Source: Mycolicibacterium mucogenicum DSM 44124
GTDB lineage: Bacteria; Actinomycetota; Actinomycetes; Mycobacteriales; Mycobacteriaceae
Length of the DNA stretch: 64,000 bases
Reading direction: 5' to 3'
NCBI RefSeq assembly: GCF_005670685.2
Contig: NZ_CP062008.1
Span: forward strand, 1,922,001 to 1,986,000
Part shown: one piece after another, positions 52,946-60,329 of the stretch
Layout: each line of letters begins with the position of its first letter
How positions within the stretch are numbered: position 1 is the stretch's first letter
Translations under genes and position numbers: made by a program
The notes under the pieces: generated by a model
What the model was told of the DNA's origin: nothing
The model's database searches: none
What the model saw: only the letters and a program-made list of their open reading frames with translations

Positions 52946-53044
52946 GGCCATTCCCGTTGGACAACGCCGATGCCGTTTCGTAACCTATTCGAGACCTCAC
53001 TGAGTTCGAAGCGGCTCGAACCCGCAGTTGAAGGACGCGAAATC

Positions 53045-54211
53045 TTGAGTCTCCACCGCACACACCGCACCATATGCAGTCTTAAACGACCAGTAGCCGG
53101 TGCGATCGCGGGGCTCACCATACTTGGTAGTGCGTTTGCGGGCAACGTCATGGCCGATCCGGCCGACGATGCCGTAGCAAAGCTGAACGAGCTCTCGCGC
53201 CAGGCGGAACAGACCACCGAGGCCATGCACGCCGCGCAGCTCGATCTGGACAAGAAGCTGGCTGCCGCGAAGGCCGCCGACTCCAAGCACGAGGCCGCCG
53301 CTGCCGCCGCGGAAGTCGCCAAGAACGACCTGGCTACCTATCAGGACTCGGTCGACAAGATTGCTGCAGCGCAGTACATGGGCGGCCGTACCGACGGCAT
53401 CGACGCCATCCTTACCGCCGATTCCCCGCAGGGCCTGATCGACCAGCTCTCGGTCCAGCGTGTGATGGCCGGTGAGATGGCCGCGCAGATGGCCAACTTC
53501 CACAGCGCCTCCGACTCCGCCACGAAGGCCGAGGCCGACTCGGCCAAGTCGGCATCCGAAGCCAAGACCGCGGCCGAGCAGGCCGCCGCCGTTCGTGCCG
53601 ATCTGCAGTCCAAGCAAAGCAAGCTGCAGGTGCAGATCGCCATCGTCAAGTCCCGTTACACCGCGCTGACGCCGAGCCAGCGGCAGGCGCTGGCGGCACT
53701 CCCGCCGGCTCCGGCTGCCGCGCCGCCCGCCCCCGCCCCCGACGGTCTCCCGCAGAACCCCGACGCGGTTCCGCCGGCCCCCGGCCAGGACCCGTCCATC
53801 AACGCGGCCGGCCCGAACCCGCCTGTCGAGGGGCTGCCCGCACCGTCGGACAACGGTGGCGGCACCGCTGCCGGCGCCATCGCGGTGCAGGCCGCCTTGA
53901 CCCGCATCGGCGACCCGTATGTCTGGGGTGCCGCCGGTCCCGGCCAGTTCGACTGCTCGGGCCTGGTGATGTGGGCGTTCCAGCAGGCCGGCATCTCGCT
54001 GCCGCACTCGAGCTACGCGCAGGCCGCCGGTGGCCAAGCGGTGTCGCGCGACCAGATGCAGCCCGGTGACGTCGTGAGCTACTACTCCGACGCCTCGCAC
54101 GTGGGCATCTACATCGGCGACGGCATGATGGTCCACGCATCGACGTTCGGTGTGCCCGTGCGGGTGGCGCCGGTCGACAACGCGCCGATCTACAACGTGC
54201 GTCGCTACTGA
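53045..54211 (+). CDS. ripC: NlpC/P60 peptidoglycan endopeptidase (RipC-like, Rv2190c)
   Basis: Secreted hydrolase cutting peptidoglycan stem peptides. 388 residues from TTG 53045. Signal peptide ending VMA-DP (residue about 36), a coiled-coil N-domain (40-200, starting ADDAVAKLNELSRQAEQT), a Pro/Ala-rich linker (about 215-275) and the NlpC/P60 domain with Cys304 (DCSGLVMWAF), His352 (SHVGIYIG) and His364. The TTG is chosen because AAGGA lies 10 bases before it, the signal begins right after, and upstream residues in frame are not signal-like. In M. tuberculosis RipC is activated by FtsEX. The next gene overlaps its stop. Confidence 0.9.
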   Translation: MSLHRTHRTICSLKRPVAGAIAGLTILGSAFAGNVMADPADDAVAKLNELSRQAEQTTEAMHAAQLDLDKKLAAAKAADSKHEAAAAAAEVAKNDLATYQDSVDKIAAAQYMGGRTDGIDAILTADSPQGLIDQLSVQRVMAGEMAAQMANFHSASDSATKAEADSAKSASEAKTAAEQAAAVRADLQSKQSKLQVQIAIVKSRYTALTPSQRQALAALPPAPAAAPPAPAPDGLPQNPDAVPPAPGQDPSINAAGPNPPVEGLPAPSDNGGGTAAGAIAVQAALTRIGDPYVWGAAGPGQFDCSGLVMWAFQQAGISLPHSSYAQAAGGQAVSRDQMQPGDVVSYYSDASHVGIYIGDGMMVHASTFGVPVRVAPVDNAPIYNVRRY

Positions 54212-55011
54212 GCCTCTCCCGACGGGCCGTCCTCGGCCTTCTCGCCGCGGAAGCGGCTGCCGCGGCCGTCGTACTGAACCGGGGTCCCGAGAACGATGCC
54301 GCCCCGTTGCGGGCCACGGCACCGCCGCTCGCCGCACCGACGGCGCCGACCGACATCCGGCTGGCCGACGGCCGGACCGCTGAACTCCTGGTCCTCGACC
54401 CCGGCTCGACGCTGCCGGGACGCATCACCGCGGAACTCGACGGCGCGGTCGCCGCGGTCACCGCATTCTGGGGCGACGACTGGCGTCGTCAGATCACCAT
54501 CGTGACCACCGGCACCGACGAGGAGTTCCGGGCGCTGGCCGGCGGGAAGGAAGAGTTCGCCGCGGCCACCACCGTCGACCGCATCGTATTCGCGCCCGGC
54601 GCCGCCGCGATGGGTCCCGGCGCACTGCGAATCGTGTTGCGCCACGAGCTTTTCCACTACGCCTCCCGGCCCGTGACGGCGGCCGACGCGCCGTGGTGCC
54701 TCACCGAGGGCGTCGCCGACTACGTCAGCCGCCCGCGCACCCCGCGGCCGGCGCCGGCCGCCATGGCGGTGCTGCCCACCAACGCCGACTTCCAGGTCAC
54801 CGGGCCGGCGCTGTCGCTGGCGTATGACCGCGCCTGGTGGTTCGCCCGGTTCGTGGGCGCGCAGTTCGGCGATCCGGTCCTGCGCCGGCTGTACCTGGCG
54901 GCGTGCGGCGCCGGACATCCCGACCTCGACACCGCGCTGACCGCCACCCTCGGCGCGGATCGCGACGCGTTGACCGCTGCGTGGCAGCGGTGGCTCGCGG
55001 CCGGCGGCTGA
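54208..55011 (+). CDS. Secreted HExxH metallopeptidase-like protein with CTG start (Rv2189c-like)
   Basis: 267 residues if started at CTG 54208, which overlaps the upstream TGA as CTGA. No ATG, GTG or TTG lies in frame before 54307, yet the frame upstream encodes a clear export signal: SLSRRAVLGLLAAEAAAA, with a twin-arginine SRRAVLG motif. Starting at TTG 54307 would remove it. The mature part has HELFHYAS (HExxH) followed by EGVADYVS, the gluzincin arrangement for zinc binding, and a C-terminal helical region DRAWWFARFVG. Probably exported by Tat and translationally coupled to ripC. Peptidase activity is inferred from the motif only. Confidence 0.7.
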   Translation: MSLSRRAVLGLLAAEAAAAAVVLNRGPENDAAPLRATAPPLAAPTAPTDIRLADGRTAELLVLDPGSTLPGRITAELDGAVAAVTAFWGDDWRRQITIVTTGTDEEFRALAGGKEEFAAATTVDRIVFAPGAAAMGPGALRIVLRHELFHYASRPVTAADAPWCLTEGVADYVSRPRTPRPAPAAMAVLPTNADFQVTGPALSLAYDRAWWFARFVGAQFGDPVLRRLYLAACGAGHPDLDTALTATLGADRDALTAAWQRWLAAGG

Positions 55012-58645: not shown

Positions 58646-59083
58646 GTGGCTGACAAGACTGCGCAGACCATCTACATCGACGCCGACCCGGCGACCGTGA
58701 TGGACGTCATCGCCGACATCGGCTCATATCCCGACTGGGTCGCCGAGTACCCGGAGACCGAGGTCCTGGACGTCTACGCCGACGGTTACCCGAAGACCGC
58801 GCGGATGGTCCTCGACGCCACGGTGCTCAAGGACACCATGGTGTTCACGTACCAGTGGCCCGCCGACCGCAAGTCGGTGAGCTGGTCCCTGGTGTCCAGC
58901 ACCCTGCTGAAGGCGCTCGAAGGCACATACCGCTTGTCGCCCAAGGGTTCTGGCACCGAGGTGACGTACGAACTGTCGGTCGATCTGATGATTCCGATGA
59001 TCGGATTGCTCAAACGCAAGGCAGAGCGCCGGCTGACCGACACGGCGCTCAAGGACCTCAAGAAGCGAGTCGAGTCTGAGTGA
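58646..59083 (+). CDS. SRPBCC / polyketide cyclase-like protein (Rv2185c, TB16.3-like)
   Basis: 145 residues. Strongly like what I recall of TB16.3: MADKTAQTIYIDADPATVMD, YPKTARMVLDATVLKDT, SLSPKGSGTEVTYELSVDL-type run (here YRLSPKGSGTEVTYELSVDL) and IGLLKRKAERRLTDTALKDLKKRVE. START-like lipid/ligand-binding fold; physiological ligand unknown. GTG start at 58646. The 3' end overlaps the next gene by 8 bases if that gene starts at CTG 59076. Confidence 0.88.
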   Translation: MADKTAQTIYIDADPATVMDVIADIGSYPDWVAEYPETEVLDVYADGYPKTARMVLDATVLKDTMVFTYQWPADRKSVSWSLVSSTLLKALEGTYRLSPKGSGTEVTYELSVDLMIPMIGLLKRKAERRLTDTALKDLKKRVESE

Positions 59084-60329
59084 CACGGACCCTGCTGGGC
59101 GTGCCAGGATCAGTCTGTTCGTCGGTAAGGGTGGAGTAGGCAAATCGACGGTGGCCACGGCCACCGCGGTGCGTGATGCCCGGGCCGGGCAGCGGGTCCT
59201 CATCGTGTCGACGGATCAGGCCCACTCCACCGGTGACGTGCTCGGGGCGGACGTCCCGCCGACCGGGCTGCGGACGCCCACGCAGGTCCCCGTCGACGAC
59301 GGCGCCGGCGTCGTGCTCGATGCCCTGGCGCTCGACACCCTGGCGCTGCTGGAGGCGCGGTGGCGTGAGGTGGCTGCGGTGCTGGTCGCCCGGTTCCCGG
59401 ACTCCGATGTGGGAGACGTTGCACCCGAGGAACTTTCGGCGTTGCCCGGGATCCAGGAGGTGCTGGGTCTGCACGAGGTCGCCGAGCTGGCGGCGTCGGG
59501 CAACTGGGACCACGTGATCGTCGACTGCGCCTCGACCGCCGATGCGATGCGGATGCTGACGCTGCCCGCCGCGTTCGCCCTGTATCTGGAGAAGGCCTGG
59601 CCGCGGCACCGGCGCCTGTCGGTCGGCCTGGCCGATGCGAAGACGGCCGCCATGGTCACCCTCGTCGAGCGCCTCGCCGCCGCCACCGAGGCGCTGGGGG
59701 AGTTGCTCGACCAGCCGGACGTCACCGCGCACCTGGTGCTCACCCCGGAACGGGTGGTGGTGGCCGAAGCGGTGCGGACGCTGGCGTCGCTCACCTTGAT
59801 GGGCGTGCACGTGTCGGAGCTGATCGTGAATCAGGTTCTGGTCCAAGACGATTCGTACGAGTACGTGAACCTGCCCGCGCACCCCGCCTTCGACTGGTAC
59901 GCCGAGCGCATCGCCGAGCAGCGCAGCATGCTCAGCGACCTGGATGCCGCCGTCGGCGACGTACGTCTGGTGCTGGTGCCGCACCTGGCCGGCGAGCCCA
60001 TCGGGCCGAAGGCGCTGGGGGAGCTGCTGGATGCGTCACGGCTGCGGCACGGCGCCCCGCCGCCCGCGCCCCCGCGCCCCATCGTCGACCGCGAATCGGG
60101 CTCAGGATTGGATGCCGTCTACCGGCTGCGGATAGAATTGCCGCAAATCGACCCGGGGTCTCTGACGCTGGGCCGCGTCGACGACGACCTGATCATCGGC
60201 TCGGGTGGCACTAGGCGCCGGGTCCCGTTGGCATCAGTCCTGCGCCGGTGCATCGTGATCGGCGCGTCGTTGCGCGGCTGTGAACTGACCGTCCGTTTTC
60301 GCCCTGACCCGGAGGTGTGGCCCAAGTGA
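59076..60329 (+). CDS. ArsA/GET3-like ATPase with CTG start (Rv2184c-like)
   Basis: 417 residues from CTG 59076. The deviant Walker A motif VGKGGVGKST spans 59121-59150, so the start must be upstream of GTG 59151, the first standard start codon in frame. Back to the in-frame stop at 59034 there is no ATG, GTG or TTG. CTG 59076 gives SDTDPAGRARISLFVGKGG, a natural N-terminus, and overlaps the previous stop. Other segments: VLIVSTDQAHSTGDVLG (switch region) and DHVIVDCASTADAM (Walker B). It resembles anion-pump/tail-anchor ATPases; partner unknown. A C-terminal small beta domain (about 350-417) resembles HSP20-like domains fused to such ATPases. Confidence 0.78.
   Translation: MSDTDPAGRARISLFVGKGGVGKSTVATATAVRDARAGQRVLIVSTDQAHSTGDVLGADVPPTGLRTPTQVPVDDGAGVVLDALALDTLALLEARWREVAAVLVARFPDSDVGDVAPEELSALPGIQEVLGLHEVAELAASGNWDHVIVDCASTADAMRMLTLPAAFALYLEKAWPRHRRLSVGLADAKTAAMVTLVERLAAATEALGELLDQPDVTAHLVLTPERVVVAEAVRTLASLTLMGVHVSELIVNQVLVQDDSYEYVNLPAHPAFDWYAERIAEQRSMLSDLDAAVGDVRLVLVPHLAGEPIGPKALGELLDASRLRHGAPPPAPPRPIVDRESGSGLDAVYRLRIELPQIDPGSLTLGRVDDDLIIGSGGTRRRVPLASVLRRCIVIGASLRGCELTVRFRPDPEVWPK

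Follow-up and report, generated by a model that had tools for sequence, protein, structure and literature searches.

A CTG codon overlapping the end of the preceding gene as the probable start of an ArsA-like ATPase gene in mycobacteria

The ArsA-like ATPase gene of Mycolicibacterium mucogenicum DSM 44124 probably starts at CTG 59076, a codon that overlaps the end of the preceding SRPBCC gene. We put the probability at roughly 0.7 that, in a large part of the genus, this CTG is the genuine ATPase start and serves ribosomes arriving from the stop of the SRPBCC gene. The comparison behind this reading has four parts: a standard start is absent, the spacer is coding, CTG is kept despite a shifting stop and frame, and a GTG alternative lies in the same octamer. 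A CUG start is notable here because the published mycobacterial reporter and Ribo-RET work found no general CUG initiation. Furthermore, the gene is present in all of the 198 genus genomes searched, yet about half of the junctions (104/229) offer no other start. Were this reading to hold, reinitiating ribosomes would be less strict about their start codon than ribosomes that initiate afresh.

The DNA analysed is a stretch of 64,000 nucleotides, referred to below as the window. The features of the junction are as follows, with positions counted from the first letter of the window.

58646..59083, + strand, upstream SRPBCC / polyketide-cyclase-like gene from the ORF list, 145 aa, C-terminus E-S-E-stop
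59034..59036, + strand, TGA closing the ATPase frame upstream; the ATPase start must lie 3' of it
59061..59069, + strand, Shine-Dalgarno-like AGAAGCGAG, whose GAG lies 7-9 bases 5' of CTG 59076
59076..59078, + strand, CTG, putative start codon of the ArsA-like ATPase, followed by SDTDPAGRARISLF
59076..59083, + strand, CTGAGTGA, 8-base overlap of the SRPBCC and ATPase genes
59076..60329, + strand, ArsA/GET3-like ATPase gene with C-terminal ArsA_HSP20 domain, 417 aa counted from the CTG
59121..59150, + strand, Walker A / P-loop VGKGGVGKST, 5' of the first standard start codon
59151..59153, + strand, GTG, first in-frame ATG/GTG/TTG; a start here gives 392 aa and loses the P-loop

An earlier note on this DNA had placed the Walker A at 59121-59150, the closing stop at 59034 and the first ATG/GTG/TTG at GTG 59151, all of which agree exactly with the sequence and the ORFs. 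It had also described CTG 59076 as overlapping the stop of the previous gene, and the bases shared by the two genes are indeed CTGAGTGA. Within this octamer, CTG stands in the ATPase frame five bases 5' of the SRPBCC stop codon, GTG 59080-59082 stands in another frame and is unused in the window, and TGA 59081-59083 is the SRPBCC stop. From TGA 59034 to the P-loop, the only NTG codons in the ATPase frame are CTG 59076 and CTG 59115, the latter being three codons 5' of GKGG. The bare octamer is not rare in the window (2 matches vs 1.63 expected); it is above chance in its conservation at the SRPBCC-ATPase junction, not in its window frequency.

The upstream gene (58646-59083) matches Pfam PF10604 and PF03364. 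The ATPase belongs to the ArsA/GET3 family, and its likeness to ArsA/GET3/TRC40 lies in the Walker A (GKGGVGKS), PF02374 (residues 11-317), TIGR00345 (141.7 bits, above the cut-off of 135) and the ArsA_HSP20 domain (PF17886, residues 347-408). Among solved structures, the closest in sequence are those of ArsA-type ATPases (9nbl, 1f48, 3zq6) and of Get3. Mycobacterial members of the family differ in having a short variable N-terminal extension. BagA/BagB (Rv3679/Rv3680) belong to the same superfamily and gave weak matches (NF053621, NF053622, 6bs3), but the ATPase scores far below the BagA/BagB family cut-offs and is therefore a separate gene; two distant matches lie elsewhere in the genome. 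We take Rv2184c to be the orthologue of the ATPase.

For the comparison, 265 ArsA loci from the genus were read, and removal of 35 duplicates and of one partial match (L293, which begins at query residue 75 and has no P-loop) left 229 distinct junctions. Duplicates were defined as identical over about 450 bases, so that near-identical species are still within the 229. Sampling was uneven: 80 of 132 relatives were kept, 25 new loci were read among the matches listed, and to these were added 100 regions taken by coordinate, 7 of them from another search, and 30 more loci; a second ArsA copy in one genome (G187), at a contig end, was left out. Mycolicibacterium sp. CBMA 226 and lyk4-40-TYG-92 are the closest relatives with a name, each sharing 98% identity with the window across the ATPase. 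At every one of the 229 mycobacterial junctions, an upstream ORF of more than 100 codons with a C-terminal K-x-L-K/R motif adjoins the ATPase. Start positions are counted below from the first base of the upstream stop.

At 153 of the 229 junctions, a CTG in the ATPase frame lies on or next to the upstream stop, which supports the proposal of the earlier note that CTG 59076 is the ATPase initiator. The CTG lies at -5 in 105 of these, at -1 in 34, at +4 in 8 and at -8 in 6, that is, overlapping the stop or a few bases from it as in coupled genes. GTG takes this place at 71 junctions (53 at -1, including 2 with CTG nearby, and 18 at +3). The other 5 comprise a TTG at -11 plus a CTG at -5, a TTG at +4, and three with a standard start further downstream (L064, L234 and L235); these three have no NTG within -12 to +6 of the stop and have their ATG or GTG in the stretch from the stop to the P-loop, whereas an in-frame NTG within that interval is present at the remaining 226 of 229 junctions. 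As in the window, the open frame before the P-loop contains no ATG, GTG or TTG anywhere at the 104 of 229 junctions mentioned above, which have CTG at the upstream stop, and at these strict loci the CTG is the only NTG in the ATPase frame at the junction. The ATPase frame of L031 is closed by an in-frame stop only five codons 5' of its CTG. A standard codon also stands between the stop and the P-loop at 39 of the 153 CTG-near junctions, which might use that codon instead. In six loci (L287-L292), the upstream gene ends GAA TCT GAC CGC TAG and the in-frame CTG at -8 is kept, with possible TTG or GTG starts further downstream.

We also read 17 loci from the same order outside the genus, one of which (L315) gave no P-loop and was not counted. 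All 16 readable loci have a standard start in the open frame, 7 codons 5' of GKGG in 12 of them; in L304 a GTG at +5 is accompanied by a CTG at -1. Because the outside-genus loci all have standard starts, the CTG start looks like a feature of the genus.

Two possible starts, CTG and GTG, stand in different frames of CTGAGTGA, which also includes two TGA triplets. The upstream gene stops either on the second TGA (GAG GCT GAG TGA) or on the first (GAG GGC TGA), the ATPase starts on the CTG or the GTG, and all four stop/start combinations were found. In the CTG(-1) class, for example, the upstream gene ends on the first TGA, yet a CTG remains in frame with the ATPase. On the protein tree there are 11 changes of start type, at least 9 of them on starred branches, the start-type and pairing trees both being quick searches. 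The pattern suggests that a slip of one base, in either gene, can be absorbed by the motif. An NTG after a frame change is partly expected because the motif has NTG in two of three frames. A bolder proposal, which we regard as possible and somewhat doubtful, is that CTGAGTGA forms a two-frame start/stop cassette in which either gene may slip by one base without loss of termination or restart, with CUG acting in mycobacteria as a reinitiation-specific start that de novo initiation would reject.

The upstream codon that overlaps the CTG is conserved beyond the demands of overlapping genes, and it is conserved in GTG(-1) species as well. Specifically, the second-to-last upstream residue varies among A, S and T, yet the T of its codon is constant: T is the third base of all 141 Ala/Ser/Thr codons at this place (all classes, 200 loci tabulated), whereas GCT makes up 5.7% of the 2590 other Ala codons in the upstream gene. 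We rely here on this unconditioned codon table, since the ranking of upstream codons (with a KK anchor present in 193 of the 195 CTG/GTG rows used) is conditioned on the letters CT, and the zero T change within the CTG(-5) class is circular, the class being conditioned on CTG. The GTG(-1) species keep the CTG triplet out of the ATPase frame (45 of 48 read GAG GCT GAG TGA), with 1 change of its T among 52 loci (e.g., L012, L066 and L070); the conservation of T must therefore come partly from some other cause.

We rely as well on the Arg codon three before the CTG-overlapping codon, since it enters no class definition. It is CGA in 105 of 105 CTG(-5) loci vs 41 of 53 GTG(-1) loci, and it contributes the GAG 7-9 bases 5' of the CTG, in the place expected of a Shine-Dalgarno sequence. 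On independent pairs, association of CGA with CTG type was not significant (a mean of 2.9 of 9 pairs in the expected way and 0.0 in the opposite way, median p 0.25). Predicted pairing to the 16S tail is moderate (median -4.6 kcal/mol), 28% of control windows are equally good, and anti-Shine-Dalgarno pairing separated starts from controls poorly. The stretch before the CTG is weakly Shine-Dalgarno-like.

The spacer between the upstream stop and the P-loop, judged by its stops and substitutions, is evolving as coding sequence. Between the upstream stop and codon -5, a stop codon occurs in the P-loop frame at 1 of 229 junctions, whereas the two remaining frames contain one at 52 and 72 junctions. 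Substitutions at codon positions 1/2/3 were 43/42/67 in CTG-type pairs and 24/23/35 in GTG-type pairs, counted in 31 of 57 CTG-type and 19 of 35 GTG-type pairs that share class and spacer length and show some but unsaturated change. Base composition per codon position in the spacer was uninformative. Pairing on the tree used only rows with a CTG or GTG start (224 of 229). Spacer length differs in 39 of 112 disjoint tree pairs, in 24 of them by a multiple of three, and the 15 non-triplet differences comprise 7 with a start-codon switch and 8 with a moved upstream stop; the ATPase frame therefore appears to be set at the junction, a count that is weaker than it seems because two of the three frames of the motif contain a possible start. 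In L024 and L062 the spacer, measured from the upstream stop, has grown to 103 and 122 bases and is still in frame, the growth being, by eye, through short repeats.

Among the other explanations, programmed ribosomal frameshifting seems unlikely. Ribosomes on the SRPBCC gene would change frame before its stop and make an SRPBCC-ATPase fusion, so that no start codon is needed, and the ATPase frame is indeed open across the SRPBCC end in the window (59037 onwards) and in many relatives. However, the frame relation between the two genes is not fixed and varies between lineages. The shift would have to be +1 in CTG(-5) loci (105) and -1/+2 in CTG(-1) loci (34), with a CTG in the ATPase frame in both, and the GTG(+3) species (18) have agreeing frames but an intervening TGA. 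The four stop/start combinations thus argue against a programmed frameshift, since different lineages need different shifts. In addition, a slippery sequence is not evident at the junction by eye, and other species have a GTG start in the same octamer. A shade less probable still is that translation begins at the ATC (Ile) five codons before GKGG, at a different near-cognate codon, or within the gene at CTG 59115. ATC occupies position -5 in 143 of 153 CTG-type loci, and ATT is able to initiate in mycobacteria (PMC4633059). Against this, 68 of 71 GTG-type loci encode the same Ile (67 ATC, 1 ATA), which is therefore probably structural, the codon is GTC in 6 CTG-type loci, and such a start would make the spacer non-coding, yet its frame is stop-free in 228 of 229 junctions and its changes look coding. 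As for CTG 59115, a CTG at that position (-3) is present in only 68 of the 153 CTG-type loci.

It is very improbable that translation truly begins at GTG 59151, which would yield an ATPase lacking the P-loop. Several database entries do have this form: 20 of the best 120 database proteins lack the P-loop, and 12 of these are 392 aa long. But the P-loop is intact in 264 of the 265 ArsA loci, the sole exception being the partial match L293, which leaves among these loci no homologue that truly lacks it, an outcome that the earlier note had named as contrary to its proposal. Moreover, the GTG-type species and the 16 readable loci outside the genus encode the P-loop after a standard start. We consider least probable of all that a base is missing from the window sequence or that the gene is a frameshifted pseudogene. 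A GTGA overlap lies one frame away and would make a standard junction, as used by 53 of 229 relatives. Yet near relatives that were assembled separately show the same CTG arrangement (L031-L034, with 93-98% ATPase identity, and L112), L111 has the CTG too, and the in-frame CTG stands beside the stop in 153 of 229 loci, so a sequencing error, also raised in the earlier note, does not explain it; the comparison of upstream regions that the note had proposed thus finds the CTG kept in near relatives.

Under the preferred reading, a CTG start used after the SRPBCC gene, ribosomes finishing at TGA 59081-59083 would stay near the message and start again on the overlapping CUG, which lies two bases 5' of the final sense codon that they decoded. 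The CUG would presumably be read by initiator tRNA, initiation on the ATPase would depend on translation of the SRPBCC gene, and the weak Shine-Dalgarno-like AGAARCGAG may assist re-initiation.

CUG accounted for 0.03% of reads in a leadered reporter in M. smegmatis (PMC4633059), and in M. tuberculosis Ribo-RET ATG, GTG and TTG were enriched and CTG was not (PMC9094748), whereas N-terminal mapping on recoded rpoB in mycobacteria counted UUG and CUG starts (PMC10653884). A start restricted to reinitiating ribosomes would reconcile these conflicting mycobacterial reports. Ribosomes released at a stop in E. coli are described as moving in either direction, with a Shine-Dalgarno sequence drawing them upstream; in an E. 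coli coupling system the junction triplet AUA failed as a start, so reinitiation there is sensitive to the codon (PMC9955659). Evolutionary switches to CUG are very rare, having been counted at 2 of 61,358 AUG, 1 of 5,080 GUG and 1 of 2,468 UUG starts (PMC5622118). Mycobacterial operon junctions were described with RTGA coupling and with Shine-Dalgarno-like signals inside the upstream gene (PMC4633059).

The junction studied here resembles RTGA coupling (termination-reinitiation) in its stop/start overlap, and the GTG(-1) species have the classical GTGA. It differs in that the start is CTG, mostly five bases before the stop (an 8-base overlap), and in that the frames of both genes relative to the motif vary between species. 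As in other bacterial CUG starts, the CUG would be read as a start; unlike them, CTG is found at most sampled junctions of one gene in the genus (153 of 229), and CTG/GTG switches accompany frame changes, not point changes.

The CTG start is already in public annotation and so is not unannotated, and our literature search found no paper describing the start of this ATPase gene. The NCBI starts for ATPase proteins are, we assume, automatic predictions. Among the best 120 database proteins, 19 were placed on a locus. NCBI proteins from CTG-type species that lack another start begin exactly at CTG -5 (P0003, P0004, P0028, P0039, P0099, P0101, P0110 and P0113) or at CTG +4 (P0041), and P0001 and P0002 have the N-terminus MSDTDPAGR, matching the CTG start. 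Two further NCBI-sourced proteins on CTG-type loci are begun at a more distant standard codon (P0042 at GTG +28 and P0054 at GTG +14). Database entries that start at the first standard codon lose the P-loop. The 20 proteins without it mentioned above are P0005-P0018, P0020, P0029, P0033, P0064, P0072 and P0120, those of 392 aa being P0005-P0015 and P0017. P0015, P0017 and P0020, placed on CTG-type loci, start MATATAV, just 3' of the P-loop, and the locus of P0020 is CTG-only.

While its proposal of a CTG start is supported, the rule that the earlier note drew from its two CTG candidates, CTGAG plus a pyrimidine, is not supported as an independent signal. CTGAGY occurs in 98 of the 153 CTG starts, and the other 55 read CTGACT (33), CTGACC (7), CTGATT (5) and others. 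CTGAGY is common because its letters largely belong to the overlapped upstream stop: in the 105 CTG(-5) loci, the letters 3' of the CTG are the last codon and the stop of the upstream gene.

The first of those candidates is most likely CTG 54208 (54208-54213), a CTGA overlap at the end of an NlpC-like gene (52970-54211), 3' of which the next gene has TTG 54307 as its first ATG/GTG/TTG. As a genus-wide pattern this candidate was rejected, as it fails to generalise across 30 loci of the NlpC-like junction: 16 have an ATG 29 bases 5' of the stop instead, and apart from the window copy (L236) only L247 clearly has its CTG at -1 following this gene end. It is kept in two close relatives (L296 and L297).

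A separate observation concerns the Val codon of the P-loop (GKGG-V-GKS; 59136-59138 in the window). GTA showed no link to start type there (91 of 153 CTG-type and 40 of 71 GTG-type loci). It is used in 131 of 224 loci vs 3.9% of the Val codons elsewhere in the gene, and it creates a TAG in the +1 frame.
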